Positions 3,040 through 17,612 of a DNA stretch of 36,164 nucleotides are shown here, one piece after another. The DNA comes from Bacilli bacterium (GTDB lineage Bacteria; Bacillota_I; Bacilli_A; RF39; UBA660), in NCBI GenBank assembly GCA_017511945.1, contig JAFWHR010000021.1, positions 1 through 36,164 of the forward strand. The letters run 5' to 3'. The position numbers and the translations under genes were made by a program. Numbering within the stretch: the stretch's first letter is position 1; every line of letters begins with the position of its first letter. Below the pieces are notes generated by a model. That model was not told the origin of the DNA, searched no databases, and saw only the letters and a program-made list of their open reading frames with translations.

Positions 3040-3504
3040 ATGAATAAATATATGGAAATAGCAAAACAATTATCAGAAGATAATCTAAAGACAAACCATG
3101 GAGGACCATTTGGTGCATGCATAGTAAAAAATGGAAAAATAGTTGGTAAAGGATCAAACCAAGTTTTAAAGGATAATGATCCAACTGCCCACGCAGAAAT
3201 AGTTGCGATAAGAGACGCATGTAGTAACTTAAAAACATATGATTTAAAAGGATGTGAATTATATACATCATGCTACCCATGTCCAATGTGCATATCAGCA
3301 ATCATATGGTCAAATATTAAAACAGTATACTATGGAAACACCAAAGAAGATGCAGGTGCCATAGGATTTAGAGATGATGATATATACAGTTTCATAAGAG
3401 ATGAAAACAAAAAGATAGATTTAACACTAAAAAATATAGATAGAAGCGAGACAATTAAAACATTTGAAGACTACACAAAAAAAGAAGATAAAATTATATA
3501 TTGA
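3040..3504 (+). CDS. guaD: guanine deaminase
   Basis: This cytosolic zinc enzyme converts guanine to xanthine. It belongs to the CDA fold, with zinc ligands His51 in DPTAHAE (catalytic Glu53) and Cys81/Cys84 in the SCYPCPMC motif. The start GGPFGACIVKNG, the AGAIGFRDDDIY segment and the C-terminal tyrosine resemble Bacillus GuaD, whose last tyrosine reaches the partner subunit's active site. Length is 154 residues against about 156. A good AGGAGG precedes ATG 3040. It is the last gene of the tsa operon. The tRNA deaminase TadA is less likely given these GuaD features. Confidence 0.88.
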   Translation: MNKYMEIAKQLSEDNLKTNHGGPFGACIVKNGKIVGKGSNQVLKDNDPTAHAEIVAIRDACSNLKTYDLKGCELYTSCYPCPMCISAIIWSNIKTVYYGNTKEDAGAIGFRDDDIYSFIRDENKKIDLTLKNIDRSETIKTFEDYTKKEDKIIY

Positions 3505-3511
3505 AAATTCT

Positions 3512-3538
3512 TTAGCACTCAGCTATTGACATTGCTAA
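3512..3538. promoter_or_regulatory. CIRCE-like HrcA operator
   Basis: The left arm TTAGCACTC (3512-3520) is the exact CIRCE half-site. Nine bases follow, and the right arm CATTGCTAA (3530-3538) matches the expected GAGTGCTAA at seven of nine positions. The spacing of nine is exactly canonical. The element overlaps the -35 box of the htpG promoter, so HrcA binding would block RNA polymerase. hrcA itself is not in this window. Confidence 0.8.
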
Positions 3539-3553
3539 AAAGAGTGGTATAAT
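3526..3553 (+). promoter_or_regulatory. consensus sigma-A promoter of htpG
   Basis: A perfect TTGACA (3526-3531) and a perfect TATAAT (3548-3553) are separated by 16 bases. The -35 box spans the spacer and right arm of the CIRCE-like repeat. Such a strong promoter under a repressor operator fits heat-inducible expression. Confidence 0.88.
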
Positions 3554-3581
3554 TATTTTGTAACCAAAAGGAGGATATGAA

Positions 3582-5468
3582 ATGAGAGAATTTAAAACAG
3601 AATCAAAAAAACTTATGGATCTAATGATTAATTCAATCTATACTAATAAGGAAGTATTTTTAAGAGAGATAGTGTCTAACGCAAGTGATGCATTAGATAA
3701 ACTTCACTATGAATCACTAACAGATGCCAATATTAAAATAGACCCGAGCAAATTAGAAATACATATAGATATTGATAAAGAAAAAAGAACATTAACCATT
3801 TCAGATAATGGTATTGGAATGAGTAAAGAAGAGTTAGAAAACAACTTAGGCACAATCGCAAAAAGTGGATCATTAGATTTTAAAACAAATAACAAAAAAG
3901 AAGAAGATATAGACATAATAGGACAATTTGGAGTAGGATTCTATTCAGCATTTATGGTGGCATCAAAAGTAGAAGTTATATCAAAAAAATATGGAAGCGA
4001 AGAAGCATACTCATGGATAAGTGAGGGTATACAAGGGTATAATATAGAAAAATCTTCAAAAGAAGAATATGGAACAGATGTCATACTTACAATTAAAGAA
4101 GATAAGGATGAAGAAGATTATACAAAATTCTTAGAAGAATATGAAATTACTTCACTAATTAAGAAATATAGTGATTACATAACCCATCCGATTAAAATGG
4201 AAGTCACCCACCAGCACTTAAAAGAAAAGGAAAATGAAGACGATAAAGATGAATATGAGACAGTAACTCATGAAGAGGTGATAAATGATCTAGTACCTAT
4301 TTGGAAGAGAAATAGTAAAGATATTAAAGAAGAAGAGTATGATACATTCTACTTTGATAAATTTGATGACTATGAAAAACCTATTAAACATATTCACACA
4401 AAAGCAGAAGGAACATTAGAATTTACATCACTAATATATATACCTTTACATGCACCTTTTGACTTTTATACAAAGGAATATGAAAAAGGTCTGCAACTTT
4501 ACTCAAATGGAGTACTTATAATGGAAAAATGTCCAGAACTAGTTCCAGATTATTTAAACTTCATAAAAGGAGTAGTTGATTCATCAGACTTACCATTAAA
4601 TATATCTAGAGAGACAGTTCAGCAAAATAGAGTACTAAAAGTAATATCTAAAAACGTTGAAACAAAAGTACTTAGAGAACTAGCTAACATGCAAGAAAAA
4701 TCCAGAGAAGAATACATTAAATTCTTTAATGCCTTTGGAATGGGACTTAAATATGGAGTTTATGCAGACTATGGAGCAAATAAAGACAAACTAAAAGATC
4801 TAATTATGTTTTACTCATCAAAAGATAAAGCACTTACAACCTTAAAAGAATACATATCTAGAATGGATAAAAATCAAAAAGAAATATATTATGCTTGTGG
4901 TGAGACAGTAGATAAAACGGACCTACTACCACAAACTACTGCAGTAAAAGATAAAGGATATGAAGTATTATATTTTACAGATTATGTAGATGAATTTGCA
5001 ATTAAAATGCTAGATAAATATGAGGATAAGACATTTAAAAACGTCTGTGATGATTCATTAGAGTTAAATAGTGAAGAAGAACAAGAAAAATTAAAGAAGA
5101 AAAACGAAAAATCCAAAGACATGTTTGACTTCATGAAAAAGGAAATTCCAGAAGTAAAAGAGATAAGATTTACAAATAAACTTTCCAAACATCCAGTATG
5201 TCTATCAAGTGATGGAATGATGAGTGCATCAATGGAAAAAGTTCTAAACGCTATGCCAAGTGATAATAAAGTGAGTGCAGAAAAAGTACTAGAGATAAAT
5301 GAAAAACATAAAATATCAAAAAAACTAAAAGACCTTTATAAAAATGACAAAAAGTTATTAAAGAAATATACGAAAATATTATATGCACAGGCGAGACTAA
5401 TTGAGGGACTAAGTATAGAAAATCCAACAGAGATAAGTAACCTAATGGCAGATGTTATGTCAAAATAG
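3582..5468 (+). CDS. htpG: molecular chaperone HtpG (bacterial HSP90)
   Basis: HtpG is a cytosolic ATP-dependent chaperone dimer. The N-terminal GHKL ATPase domain shows EIVSNASDALDKL, the DNGIGM motif and GQFGVGFYSAF lid/loop sequence. The middle domain carries the catalytic arginine loop region SRETVQQNRVL. The C-terminal dimerisation domain is complete, ending near residue 628, matching the ~625 of E. coli HtpG. ATG 3582 follows AGGAGG with ideal spacing. The promoter is controlled by a CIRCE-like operator (see that entry). An intrinsic terminator follows at once, so the gene is monocistronic. Confidence 0.98.
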   Translation: MREFKTESKKLMDLMINSIYTNKEVFLREIVSNASDALDKLHYESLTDANIKIDPSKLEIHIDIDKEKRTLTISDNGIGMSKEELENNLGTIAKSGSLDFKTNNKKEEDIDIIGQFGVGFYSAFMVASKVEVISKKYGSEEAYSWISEGIQGYNIEKSSKEEYGTDVILTIKEDKDEEDYTKFLEEYEITSLIKKYSDYITHPIKMEVTHQHLKEKENEDDKDEYETVTHEEVINDLVPIWKRNSKDIKEEEYDTFYFDKFDDYEKPIKHIHTKAEGTLEFTSLIYIPLHAPFDFYTKEYEKGLQLYSNGVLIMEKCPELVPDYLNFIKGVVDSSDLPLNISRETVQQNRVLKVISKNVETKVLRELANMQEKSREEYIKFFNAFGMGLKYGVYADYGANKDKLKDLIMFYSSKDKALTTLKEYISRMDKNQKEIYYACGETVDKTDLLPQTTAVKDKGYEVLYFTDYVDEFAIKMLDKYEDKTFKNVCDDSLELNSEEEQEKLKKKNEKSKDMFDFMKKEIPEVKEIRFTNKLSKHPVCLSSDGMMSASMEKVLNAMPSDNKVSAEKVLEINEKHKISKKLKDLYKNDKKLLKKYTKILYAQARLIEGLSIENPTEISNLMADVMSK

Positions 5469-5492
5469 TAGGAATAAAAATCCTACTTTTTT
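5468..5492 (+). terminator. htpG intrinsic terminator
   Basis: The stem GTAGGA (5468-5473) pairs with TCCTAC (5481-5486) around an A-rich loop and is followed by TTTTTT. The stem begins at the last base of the htpG stop codon. Confidence 0.85.
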
Positions 5493-9953: not shown

Positions 9954-11558
9954 TTAATTAAAATTCCATTTAATTTGAATGTTTCTACTATTCATTTCCT
10001 TATTTATTTTTCCTATATATATTTTGTCTATAAATTCTTGGATAATAATTCTACTAAGTGTTTTTAACTTTTTATATTTACCGAATAGTTCATTACAATT
10101 TTTAGAAGATATTACATTTTTCTTATAATGTGTTATCTTGTCACTGATACTTTTAATTTTACTATTATACATTTTTTCATTCTTGTTATATTCAGTAATT
10201 AAATCTTTAAATTGCTCTTTAGTAATTATTCCATTAACCTTATCTTCATATAAATTTTTTAAATATTTTTTTGTATTAGATATTTCTTTTTCTAATTCTT
10301 TTTTTCTTTTTTCTAAAAAATTCATTGTACTTTTAAATCTACTTTCTTTATTGTATAGTTTTTGTAGTATTTCTTTATCATAGAATTTTTCAATTTTTTC
10401 ATTAATTTTTTCTAAAATTAAATTTTCGAGTAAATCATATCTAATAGAAGATTTATTAATGCACATATCATATCCGTCTTTATTATTAGAGCAAACTAAA
10501 TATTCGTGTTTAGAAGAATTTTTTTTCCTCATATAATGATTACATTCTAGGCAGAATACCTTACCAGAAAATATGTGAACACCTCCTGAACTCTTTATAG
10601 GTTTAGTTCTTTCTTTAATTAGATTTTGAACATTGTTAAAAATTTCTTCATCTATTATTGCTTCATGGGTGTTTTCTCTCCTAATCCAATATTTTTTTCC
10701 CTTACTTTTTATCTTATGATTTTTATAACTTACAGTAGTTCTTTTTCCTTGAATTAGATGACCTAGGTAAACTTCATTAGTTAGTATAGTTTTAATGGCA
10801 TTATGACTCCATTTAATCTCTTCTCGTGGTCTACTGCTTATTACATTTAGTTTGATTCCCTTTTTATATTTGTATAGAGAAGGTGAGGGGATTTGTTTTT
10901 TATTTAAGGATTTTGCTATGGCAGTAAATCCTAAACCACTTAAATACAAATTAAATATACATTTTACAATTTCAGATGCTTCTTTATCTACTATTAGTTT
11001 GTTATTATCTTCTTTAGATACTTCATAACCATATGGAGCAAAAGGTGAGATAAATTCTCCTTGTTTCATTTTAGCCTTAAAAGCACTTCTAATATTATTA
11101 GACACATCTTCTAAATACCACTCATTAACAAGACCATTTATTTGTCTAGATTTTTTGTTTCCTAAATTCGATGTATCAGCATTATCTGCAAGACCTATAA
11201 ACCTAACATTCCATTCGATAAACTTATTATGAATATATTTTTCAATAACTTCCATATCTCTTGAAAATCTCGATTGACTTTTACATAGAACAACATCTAT
11301 TTTTCCTTCTTCACAGTCTTTAATAAGTCTTTCAAATTCAGGTCTATAAGTTCCCGCACCAGATAAATCCTCATCACAGTACTCACCAACCAGTATAAAA
11401 TCAGATCTCTTTTCAATCTCAGCCATTAAAAGATGTCTTTGATTTTTAATTGATTCACTAATATCTTCTGTATTTACTTTATCTCTATCCTGATCAGATA
11501 GTCTTTCATAAATACCAACCCTAAAGTATTTTTCATTATTATTAATGTTTTCATTCAT
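9954..11558 (-). CDS. large serine recombinase of element 1
   Basis: This 534-residue site-specific recombinase should integrate and excise element 1. The N-terminal resolvase domain has GIYERLSDQDRDK with catalytic Ser21, then SIKNQR, EYCDEDLSGAGTYRPEFERL and SRFSRDMEVIEKYI. The recombinase domain follows (APYGYEV to NEVYLGHLIQGKR). A zinc-ribbon has CLECNHYMRKK, then CSNN and a later Cys in DMCIN. A C-terminal coiled coil spans about residues 375-470. ATG 11558 follows CCTCC/GGAGG at 11567-11571 with 8 bases spacing; an upstream in-frame TTG at 11573 overlaps that site and is less likely. A 40-residue ORF precedes it. Confidence 0.95.
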   Translation of the reverse strand: MNENINNNEKYFRVGIYERLSDQDRDKVNTEDISESIKNQRHLLMAEIEKRSDFILVGEYCDEDLSGAGTYRPEFERLIKDCEEGKIDVVLCKSQSRFSRDMEVIEKYIHNKFIEWNVRFIGLADNADTSNLGNKKSRQINGLVNEWYLEDVSNNIRSAFKAKMKQGEFISPFAPYGYEVSKEDNNKLIVDKEASEIVKCIFNLYLSGLGFTAIAKSLNKKQIPSPSLYKYKKGIKLNVISSRPREEIKWSHNAIKTILTNEVYLGHLIQGKRTTVSYKNHKIKSKGKKYWIRRENTHEAIIDEEIFNNVQNLIKERTKPIKSSGGVHIFSGKVFCLECNHYMRKKNSSKHEYLVCSNNKDGYDMCINKSSIRYDLLENLILEKINEKIEKFYDKEILQKLYNKESRFKSTMNFLEKRKKELEKEISNTKKYLKNLYEDKVNGIITKEQFKDLITEYNKNEKMYNSKIKSISDKITHYKKNVISSKNCNELFGKYKKLKTLSRIIIQEFIDKIYIGKINKEMNSRNIQIKWNFN

Positions 11559-11581
11559 AACAGTTACCTCCAATGGTAGTT

Positions 11582-13975: not shown

Positions 13976-14094
13976 TTTTAATCACTATTATGATGGTATC
14001 AAATAGCCAGGGATAAGTCCATAAAATTATGAGTTTATAATTTTTGCTTTTTATTGTTTATTTTGATAAAATTATTAAAGAATGGAGGTTATTT

Positions 14095-15771
14095 ATGTTA
14101 AATGAATTTGACATAACTAAAAAAAATGATTCTGATATAACAAGTATTGGAGAATTAATAAGAAATGATTATTCATATTTTTCAACCTTATCTTCTGAAC
14201 TTAGAAATAATCCTTATTTGTTAAATATTGCTCTTACAAGTTTTAATGGTGGAAAAAATTCGATTAATCCAATAAGTTATGCTTTAGAAAAGGCCCTAAC
14301 TAAAGAAAATATAGATTTAGCACTAGAAAAAGGAGGAAATATCAATATTTACGGATTACTTAGAGAAAATGAGTTATTCCATAAGATTAATATTGAAAAA
14401 GGTGTAATTCCAGTAGCTTATTCTTTACTCCCTAACTTTATAAAAGAAGATGATTATTTAATGAGCTTATATATGAGAATATGTCCTGATGAATATAAGA
14501 ATTTAGATGTAAGGCAGCGTAATAATCCTGAAATATTAAAACAAGCACTTGATAATGAATTAGGTAAAAATCCAATAAGTTATGCTTTGGAAGGAGCACT
14601 TACTGATGAAAATGTAGATTTAGCACTAGAAAAAGGCAATATTATAATTGTTAAAGATAGTCCACTTTCAAATTGTAAACATTTAGTTTTAAAATTATTT
14701 CAAGATAGTCATAATGTTTTCCAGTATGTGTTTTTATCTGATAAATTAAAATCAGATCCTGAAATATTAAAACAAGCACTTTTAAATTATGATAGTAAAA
14801 TAGTTAAAGTAAATCCAATAAGTTATGCTTTGGAAGGAGCACTTACTGATGAAAATATGGATTTAGCATTAAAACTCGGTAATGTAAAAATTATTAAAGG
14901 TGCATCTATTTCAGACAGTAAATATTTTATTATTGAAGTTTTTAAAAGAGGATTATATATTTCTCATTATAAGGATATATCTGATAAATTAAAATCAGAT
15001 CCTGAAATATTAAAACAAGCACTTTTAAATTATGATAGTAAAATAGTTAAAGTAAATCCAATAAGTTATGCTTTAGAAGGAGCACTTACTAAAGAAAATG
15101 TAGATTTGGCATTAAAAAAAGGTAATATAGAATTTATGTTAAATAATTCTCTTTTAAGTAATAGATATTTTGTTATAAAATCTTTTAAAAATGGTTTGTT
15201 TTTTTCTCAGTATAATAATATATCTGATACATTAAAAAATGATCCAGAAGTAAGAGCACTTATACCATCTGAATTAGAGAAGATGTATAAGTATGACTGC
15301 GCAGTAATTGGCATTTTACCAGATGGAAAAGCTTTAGAGAGGGAAGTAAGAGGTAAAAGTGATAAAGGTGATCATCACAAGGGTACTATTATTAAAATGA
15401 TAGATGAATTTTGTGAAAAATATGAAAATGATAGTTATTTATGTGCTTTACGTAATGATTTATCAGGTGTTTCTAATTCATTTAAAGCAGCTCAGTTGTG
15501 TGCAAATTATGATGTTTTGGCTGTTTTAATTGTAGAACATATTTGTATGCTTTTTTGTCCTGATGTTCTTTCTATAGAGCAACTTCAAACCCTTCAAAAT
15601 TTTTTAAATAAATATTCTGATTATTTTGAGTGTGAATTATATCATGGAGGGGAGATATTTAGAAAAAACGTTAGTCAAGAAAATGGAGAAAGTGATCGTT
15701 TTAGTGTTGATGAAACGATAGATTTAATAGATACAAATGATTGGGTTAATAGAGTACGTAGTTATAGATAA
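14095..15771 (+). CDS. hypothetical protein with 81-residue tandem repeats
   Basis: The 558-residue protein (ATG 14095 after GGAGG) is not a family I can name with confidence. Residues ~33-85 and repeats starting near 137, 214, 295 and 376 share the pattern LKSDPEILKQAL...NPISYALEGALTDENVDLAL.KGN, with period 77, 81 and 81 residues. The short 'DPEI..AL' units recall DUF4116-like helical repeats. Residues ~400-558 form a separate C-terminal region with the HHKGTIIKMIDEFCEKYEND and LIVEHICMLFCPDV segments and no recognised catalytic motif. No signal peptide or TM helix is seen, so it is probably cytosolic. It is the main cargo of element 2. Element genes of this kind often serve defence or host fitness, but that is speculation. 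Confidence 0.85.
   Translation: MLNEFDITKKNDSDITSIGELIRNDYSYFSTLSSELRNNPYLLNIALTSFNGGKNSINPISYALEKALTKENIDLALEKGGNINIYGLLRENELFHKINIEKGVIPVAYSLLPNFIKEDDYLMSLYMRICPDEYKNLDVRQRNNPEILKQALDNELGKNPISYALEGALTDENVDLALEKGNIIIVKDSPLSNCKHLVLKLFQDSHNVFQYVFLSDKLKSDPEILKQALLNYDSKIVKVNPISYALEGALTDENMDLALKLGNVKIIKGASISDSKYFIIEVFKRGLYISHYKDISDKLKSDPEILKQALLNYDSKIVKVNPISYALEGALTKENVDLALKKGNIEFMLNNSLLSNRYFVIKSFKNGLFFSQYNNISDTLKNDPEVRALIPSELEKMYKYDCAVIGILPDGKALEREVRGKSDKGDHHKGTIIKMIDEFCEKYENDSYLCALRNDLSGVSNSFKAAQLCANYDVLAVLIVEHICMLFCPDVLSIEQLQTLQNFLNKYSDYFECELYHGGEIFRKNVSQENGESDRFSVDETIDLIDTNDWVNRVRSYR
14735..15074 (+). repeat. 97-bp exact direct repeat within the 558-residue protein gene
   Basis: The 97 bases at 14735-14831 recur without change at 14978-15074, an offset of 243 bases or exactly 81 codons. 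Similarity continues beyond with scattered differences. The perfect stretch points to a recent duplication or gene-conversion event between repeat units. Confidence 0.88.
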
Positions 15772-16034: not shown

Positions 16035-17612
16035 GTGATTTATATAACATGCAATAATACTAAATATAAAGTTGCCATTTATATGAGATTATCAAGAGAA
16101 GATGATAAAACTGATGATAAAGGTAAGTATCATAAAAGAGATAGCGAAAGTATTAATAATCAGCGCAATATATTAAAAAAATATATTAGTCAAAATAATT
16201 TAAATCTTTTAGGTGAGTATGTGGATGACGGTTATAGTGGTTCTAATTTTGATAGGCCAAATTTTAAGAGGATGATTAGTGATATAGAAAAAGGATTAAT
16301 CAACATGGTTATAGTAAAAGATTTATCAAGACTTGGTAGAAATAATATTGAAACTAGTAAGTATGTTGATAGATACTTTCCAATACATAAAGTAAGATTT
16401 ATTGCACTTTTGGATGATGTTGATACTGAGATGGACACTATGGGAAATGAAATGGCTCCTTTTAAAATTGTCGTAAATGATTATTACAATAGAATAACTT
16501 CTAAAAATATTAGAACAACATTTAAAAATAAAAAAAGTGAAGGGTTATTTTTAGGCTGGAAAGCACCTTATGGTTATAGGAAATCAAGTGTAAATAAATA
16601 TAAGCTTGAGATAGACGAAGAAGCAGCAAAGGTTGTTAGAAGAATATTTTATCTTGCTAAAGAGGGAAATAGTCCTGGGCAAATAGCAAATATACTTTCT
16701 GAGGATAATATACCTACACCTAGTATGTATGCTAATATAAATAGAAAAGTAAAGTCATATAATCTTTGGTGTTCTAGGACTATTGATGAGATGTTAAGTA
16801 ATGAAACTTATATTGGTAATTTAACGCAGGGGAGAAGAAAAAAGATATATGGTGTAAAAATGGAAATTAGAACCCCTAAAGAAGATTGGATAATCGTAGA
16901 AAATACACATGAACCAATAGTTGATAGAGAAACATTTAAAATAGTTCAAAAGATAAGAAGAAAAAAATTAAAAGGTGGTTTTGAAATTCATAATTATTTA
17001 TTTAGACATTTTTTAAGGTGTAAAGAGTGCAGTCACGCAATAGGTGTTACTGTAAGAAATACTAGAAGACAATCATATACTTCTTGTACCTATTATCAAA
17101 AGTATAGTAAATATAAGTTATGTACGCCTCACACTATGAATTATGGAAAGTTAGAGACTGAAATACTTAGTAAAATAAGAGAACTTTGTGAAAAAAATAT
17201 AGATAAAAATACTCTTAAGACAATTATAAAAAATGAAGAAAAAAATAATAATAGATATGAAAAACTAAAAATTCAGTTTAATGAATTTCAAGATAAATTA
17301 GATAATTATGATAATTACTTTGATGATATTTATCTTGACTTAAAAAAGAATATAATTAATGAAGAACAATATAATAGAGCTAAAGTTAGATTAGAAAAAG
17401 AAAAGGAAGATATTATAGAAAGACTGAAGAAAACAAAACAAAAACTTTCAAATACCTCTAATGAGAGTGCTAAAGAAAAGGATATAGTTAAATTTATTAA
17501 TAAGTATTTATCTTTTGAAAAACCTCCTAAACAGTTAATTGCTTTGCTTATTGATAGAGTAGAGATAGATGAGAATAAAAAGATAGACATATACTTTAAT
17601 TTTAAGATTTAA
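16035..17612 (+). CDS. large serine recombinase of element 2
   Basis: This 525-residue recombinase should move element 2. The resolvase domain has VAIYMRLSREDDK with catalytic Ser20, SINNQR, YVDDGYSGSNFDRPNFKRM and DLSRLGRNNIET. A recombinase domain follows (APYGYRKSS to NETYIGNLTQGRRK), then a zinc ribbon (CKECSHAIG, later two Cys) and a coiled coil (~380-480). The start is unusual. The frame opens with GTG 16035, with only AGAAG upstream. The nearest ATG codons (16022, 16049) are in another frame and meet a stop at 16055. No later start keeps Ser20. It ends 60 bases before the right arm, the usual integrase-beside-att layout. Confidence 0.93.
   Translation: MIYITCNNTKYKVAIYMRLSREDDKTDDKGKYHKRDSESINNQRNILKKYISQNNLNLLGEYVDDGYSGSNFDRPNFKRMISDIEKGLINMVIVKDLSRLGRNNIETSKYVDRYFPIHKVRFIALLDDVDTEMDTMGNEMAPFKIVVNDYYNRITSKNIRTTFKNKKSEGLFLGWKAPYGYRKSSVNKYKLEIDEEAAKVVRRIFYLAKEGNSPGQIANILSEDNIPTPSMYANINRKVKSYNLWCSRTIDEMLSNETYIGNLTQGRRKKIYGVKMEIRTPKEDWIIVENTHEPIVDRETFKIVQKIRRKKLKGGFEIHNYLFRHFLRCKECSHAIGVTVRNTRRQSYTSCTYYQKYSKYKLCTPHTMNYGKLETEILSKIRELCEKNIDKNTLKTIIKNEEKNNNRYEKLKIQFNEFQDKLDNYDNYFDDIYLDLKKNIINEEQYNRAKVRLEKEKEDIIERLKKTKQKLSNTSNESAKEKDIVKFINKYLSFEKPPKQLIALLIDRVEIDENKKIDIYFNFKI

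Follow-up and report, generated by a model that had tools for sequence, protein, structure and literature searches.

A predicted HrcA/CIRCE operator on the -35 box of htpG in a genus of Bacilli without detectable GroEL

In Bacillus subtilis, class I heat shock genes are controlled by the repressor HrcA, and both the repressor and the CIRCE consensus are shared with the system described here. In the part of a B. subtilis review that deals with HrcA, the operons named are hrcA-dnaK and groESL, with feedback via GroEL-GroES, and htpG is not named there (PMC8957991); the genome studied here differs from this regulon in that it carries a CIRCE element upstream of htpG. This raises the question of whether htpG, which encodes an HSP90 chaperone, is under HrcA control in this organism and, if so, whether such control is peculiar to its lineage.

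The window, that is, the whole stretch of DNA that was analysed, comprises 36,164 bases and stems from a small genome of 909,893 bases, whose assembly is fragmented (28 contigs, 84.9% complete). The contig begins inside a 23S rRNA gene, near its 3' end, and a 5S rRNA gene follows (1-476). The gene htpG is encoded on the forward strand at 3582-5468, starts with an ATG codon at 3582 and codes for a protein of 628 amino acids, which matches the Pfam HSP90 family (E 3.5e-113) and the curated NCBIfam HtpG equivalog model NF003555 with 667.9 bits (cut-off 371). A ribosome binding site, AGGAGG, can be read directly from the forward strand at 3569-3574. Overlapping the end of the gene, a hairpin with a 7-pair stem followed by a T run (5467-5487, forward strand) resembles an intrinsic terminator, suggesting that the htpG transcript ends there; the scan for such sites relies on a consensus match only and returned one site versus 0.4 in shuffled sequences. 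The upstream neighbor, located on the same strand at 3040-3504 and outside of the switch discussed below, encodes a cytidine/nucleoside deaminase-like protein (PF00383, E 1.2e-28). The same scan found no terminator-like site between this gene and htpG, and transcripts running on from the deaminase gene could contribute htpG expression that escapes regulation. Further downstream, two large serine recombinases are encoded on opposite strands (9954-11573 and 16035-17612), and between them lies a frame of 575 amino acids (14044-15771) for which Pfam returned no match at E 1e-10; together, they possibly constitute a mobile element.

The CIRCE element is located at 3512-3538 on the forward strand and ends 43 bases upstream of htpG. 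It consists of the left arm TTAGCACTC (3512-3520), which matches the consensus at 9/9 positions, a spacer of 9 bases (3521-3529) and the right arm CATTGCTAA (3530-3538), which matches at 7/9 positions, so that 16 of the 18 CIRCE bases are retained. The promoter at 3526-3553 of the same strand is composed of the -35 box TTGACA (3526-3531), a 16-base spacer, a TG dinucleotide (3545-3546) and the -10 box TATAAT (3548-3553), and is the only one of 13 promoter-like sites between 2900 and 5700 that matches the sigma-A consensus at 12/12 positions; the number of such sites does not exceed that of shuffled sequences (mean 17.3). Four bases of the -35 box fall at the end of the CIRCE spacer and the other two at the start of the right arm, and a repressor bound to the operator would therefore cover it. 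An exact left half-site and a 7/9 right half-site, spaced by 9 bases and lying over a perfect -35 box, had been described in the original prediction, and this description was confirmed, with no such site arising in 100 shuffles of the window.

A match of this quality is not expected by chance. Allowing up to three mismatches, CIRCE occurs once in the window and was absent from all 100 dinucleotide shuffles. When the 77 bases upstream of htpG were shuffled 20,000 times with dinucleotides preserved, two mismatches were never reached and three mismatches only twice. From base composition, about 2e-6 sites with at most two mismatches are expected in 200 bases and about 0.01 in the entire genome, in which six were observed. 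A chance origin of the htpG element is thus excluded. The element could nevertheless be a CIRCE-like remnant, of chance or decayed origin, which no longer binds HrcA and leaves htpG constitutively expressed. The two right-arm mismatches speak for this reading: they affect the first base and the third base (G to T), and the latter substitution is absent from the other five CIRCE sites of the genome, although it recurs in a site of another genome of the genus (L198). However, the left arm is exact, the rarity of such sites in sequence of this length argues against coincidence, and the other two htpG genes found in the genus have retained the element, which makes a non-functional site very unlikely. 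In Mycoplasma gallisepticum, functional CIRCE elements are described as having at most two mutations (PMC5138195), and the htpG operator, with its two mismatches, should therefore work. Its affinity may be lowered by the third-base mismatch, and it may be weaker than the clpB operators described below, which have one mismatch each.

A regulator that could bind this operator is encoded in the genome: as anticipated in the original prediction, hrcA is present (E 1.4e-49; TIGR00331 above cut-off). A search of the genome for CIRCE with up to three mismatches returned six sites, each with one or two mismatches, and none with a reversed-pattern control. All six are located upstream of chaperone genes or operons, two of them in front of hrcA-grpE-dnaK and one each in front of two clpB copies, hsp20 and htpG. 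The expectation that CIRCE would precede both dnaK and groES was borne out for dnaK; the groES part fell away, since the genome yielded no GroES and none of the 44 genomes of the genus had a match to GroEL. Each of the two clpB genes has one CIRCE element, and that of the copy at L001 is located between clpB and a divergent gene of unknown function. When the product of this copy is read from its start, the match to the ClpB model begins only at position 148, and the protein thus seems to lack the N-terminal domain. The copy at L002 lies, as judged by eye, near transposase-like frames. In five of the six operators, namely those of htpG, both clpB copies, hsp20 and the upstream hrcA site, TTGACA lies within CIRCE, and it is lacking from the second hrcA site. 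In these five operators, the -35 box extends into the right arm, whose first base therefore deviates from the consensus G.

This regulon resembles that of Spiroplasma melliferum, a member of the Mollicutes, which likewise has a reduced genome and CIRCE elements in front of the dnaK operon and clpB (PMC5138195). In S. melliferum, HrcA sites were reported at dnaK, clpB and lon, whereas the groESL promoter lacks CIRCE; the main text of that paper does not mention htpG or hsp90 (PMC5138195), and the regulon of the genome studied here includes htpG and hsp20.

Another regulator, for example CtsR, which governs the class III regulon, could in principle control htpG. No point in support of such control was found. 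There is no CtsR-like site (heptad repeat) near htpG, and the two matches in the window (at 1126 and 9550) are fewer than in shuffled sequences. A weak search of the genome for ctsR found no such gene; of 14 control genomes only 1 was positive, and the ctsR gene that B. subtilis has was missed. Control by a regulator such as CtsR is regarded as very improbable.

The arrangement extends to the relatives of this organism. CIRCE with at most two mismatches was detected in all 44 genomes of the genus. In 29 genomes of the genus other than the one studied here, the best site precedes clpB in 25 cases, hsp20 in two and hrcA in one, and the remaining site had no tblastn match, the frame downstream of it beginning, by eye, like an Hsp20; TTGACA is found on one strand inside 28 of these 29 fetched sites. 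A full-length htpG gene is present in only 3 of the 36 genus genomes searched, including the one studied here, and HtpG is thus patchily distributed within the genus. A weak match in G027 (26.7 bits, residues 9-109 only) was not counted as htpG. All three htpG genes are preceded by a CIRCE element with two mismatches, and in the two other genomes it also lies on the -35 box.

The original prediction further suggested that HSP90 had become part of the HrcA regulon within this lineage. The regulatory half of this claim is well supported by the presence of hrcA and by the CIRCE elements at hrcA-grpE-dnaK, both clpB genes and hsp20; the notion of a recruitment in the lineage did not survive comparison with other genomes. 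A first sample of 59 genomes consisted of 36 genomes of the genus and 23 others of the class, 17 of which have a full-length htpG gene, and CIRCE with at most three mismatches precedes 11 of these 17 genes. In a larger sample of 218 genomes drawn evenly across the class, htpG was found in 134; three of these (G112, G153 and G196) were excluded as they have no intact N-terminal match, leaving 131 upstream regions, of which four (L067, L108, L125 and L149) comprise fewer than 250 bases. CIRCE was present in 94 of the 131 regions with at most three mismatches and in 102 with at most five; an arm-reversed control found none with at most five. A wider survey of the phylum added nothing, since all 66 matching genomes (of 195) belonged to the same class. 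Among five loci assigned to Clostridia by record title, three have an exact CIRCE (L011, L012 and L014) and two have none (L009 and L013). Published sequence analyses also place HrcA/CIRCE sites upstream of htpG (CAC3315) in Clostridium acetobutylicum and of hsp90 in Clostridium cellulovorans, the latter with an exact CIRCE (PMC3828012, PMC8336468). In both species, the gene shares its regulon with the hrcA-grpE-dnaK operon, as it does here; in contrast to the organism studied here, whose genus has no detectable GroEL and whose regulon contains clpB and hsp20, their regulons include groESL (PMC3828012, PMC8336468). For Clostridium botulinum, heat induction of htpG was reported and a CIRCE consensus is given for the genus Clostridium, although the part of the paper concerned does not name a CIRCE for C. 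botulinum htpG itself (PMC3806222). In the open-access literature, no publication dealing with this genus or with the operators of htpG throughout its class was found, which is not proof of absence.

Most htpG genes of the class sample are therefore preceded by CIRCE, which is also found in Clostridia, and the arrangement is an ordinary one and not an innovation of this lineage. Since it is so widespread, a recent recruitment of htpG through the gain of a CIRCE element is highly improbable. Two observations could be taken to favor it: htpG is absent from the HrcA operons named in the B. subtilis review (PMC8957991), and the operator lies on the -35 box here, while in the closest HtpG relatives (L066 and L067) it is located, by eye, downstream of a -10 box and adjoins the ribosome binding site, so that an operator in precisely this place may be a new acquisition. 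However, both relatives do possess CIRCE, with one and two mismatches, respectively.

HrcA control of htpG is not universal in the class. No CIRCE within five mismatches was found in 29 of the 131 upstream regions, and these are partly clustered: they comprise 7/8 genes in family f8, 6/6 in f10, 7/13 in f12 and both in f2. The two htpG-bearing genomes of f2 (G036 and G048) also lack a detectable hrcA gene. In the family to which the organism studied here belongs, htpG of G216 has no CIRCE within five mismatches, and that of G098 has one with four. In f10 and f8, the CIRCE-less htpG genes (6/6 and 7/8) occur despite the presence of hrcA, and these two families form a natural contrast set for the loss of HrcA control. 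On a tree of 138 HtpG sequences, from which L157 and L178 had been dropped as their translated products are shorter than 400 amino acids, the presence of CIRCE requires at least 11 changes, whereas 50 shuffles gave 27.5 on average.

Taken together, htpG is very probably controlled by a classical HrcA/CIRCE operator of a kind that is widespread in the class and also occurs in Clostridia, at which HrcA would occlude the -35 box and heat would relieve the block. At normal temperature, an HrcA dimer bound to 3512-3538 would cover the -35 box and block RNA polymerase containing sigma-A, thereby keeping htpG expression low. Upon heat or other protein-folding stress, HrcA would lose its activity, and the strong htpG promoter would then fire alongside those of hrcA-grpE-dnaK, clpB and hsp20. 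Binding of HrcA, repression and heat induction of htpG are what this arrangement predicts.

The classical operator may have a more complicated past, which would be compatible with the reading just given: HrcA control of htpG may be old. The htpG gene studied here may have passed from one genus of the family to another, or differential loss may account for its distribution, and its operator may then have been re-established over the -35 box, following the arrangement seen at the other chaperone genes of the genus. We consider this possible, though less likely than not. In the HtpG tree, the protein encoded in the window groups with those of L066 and L067, which stem from other, GroEL-bearing genera of the family (G068 and G202), with a support of 96/95, and a clade with the HtpG proteins of its own genus (L016 and L017, from G010 and G021) was rejected (p-AU 0.016). 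However, the tested group was picked after the first tree had been seen, so that this p-value is optimistic, and the fork joining the HtpG group of the window to G010 and G021 is weakly supported (82/44). Of the 108 tree sequences with a CIRCE element, 56 have TTGAC inside it and 52 do not, and this trait requires at least 15 changes on the 138-sequence tree, whereas 50 shuffles gave 36.6 on average. Not one of the genes that neighbor htpG in the window was found next to htpG at 12 further loci, namely L008, L010 and 10 from the family, within short flanks (about 1.5 to 3 kb, less at contig ends). The register of the -35 box in the htpG operator, position 15, equals that of the hrcA promoters, whereas the other promoters listed have position 14; the list holds only sites with at most two mismatches and TTGAC inside, and the frequency of a layout cannot be read from it. 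A direct copy of the genome's own hrcA promoter was considered as the source of the htpG promoter and rejected, as their similarity is not higher than that to two other promoters of the genus, which also weakens the case for rebuilding. It seems from these comparisons that the position of the operator turns over while HrcA control persists, and a movement of htpG between genera is suggested.

A CIRCE element at groESL, which is typical of but not defining for a class I regulon, was not found here, in line with the lack of GroES matches in the genome and of GroEL matches in the genus. Of the 44 genus genomes without a GroEL match, 14 have a completeness of 90% or more and low contamination, and the same search was positive in 14 of 14 control genomes. 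In the class sample, GroEL was matched in 109 of the 218 genomes (107 above cut-off) and HrcA in 212, and 105 genomes have HrcA without detectable GroEL according to a hand count, in which two of the six HrcA-less genomes match GroEL. CIRCE with at most three mismatches precedes htpG in 59 of 79 genomes with GroEL and in 35 of 52 without it; CIRCE at htpG thus does not follow the presence of GroEL. Within the family of the organism studied here, GroEL matches are found in G068, G161, G188, G202 and G250 and, split, in G174; where unbroken, they score 131.7 to 141.7 bits, compared to more than 200 bits for most of the class sample, and GroEL in this family may have diverged or may have a different origin.

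An HrcA that operates without GroEL would have to receive its signal by another route. In Campylobacter jejuni, HrcA was reported to be an intrinsic thermosensor, whose DNA binding is still enhanced by GroE (PMC8533110), and by analogy with this report a GroE-independent input is plausible. It is tempting to speculate, although we regard this extended scenario as rather unlikely, that HrcA of this genus runs a chaperone regulon including HSP90 without GroEL and reads stress otherwise, either by its own heat sensitivity or by the titration of, for instance, DnaK or ClpB. The operator centered on the -35 box may then have co-evolved with the change of input, and htpG operators may have been rebuilt in that layout upon moves between genera.

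The survey corrects an expectation centered on B. subtilis, as htpG in the sampled class usually carries an HrcA operator. Furthermore, the GroEL-less setting makes it testable which signal HrcA would read once its classical partner is gone.
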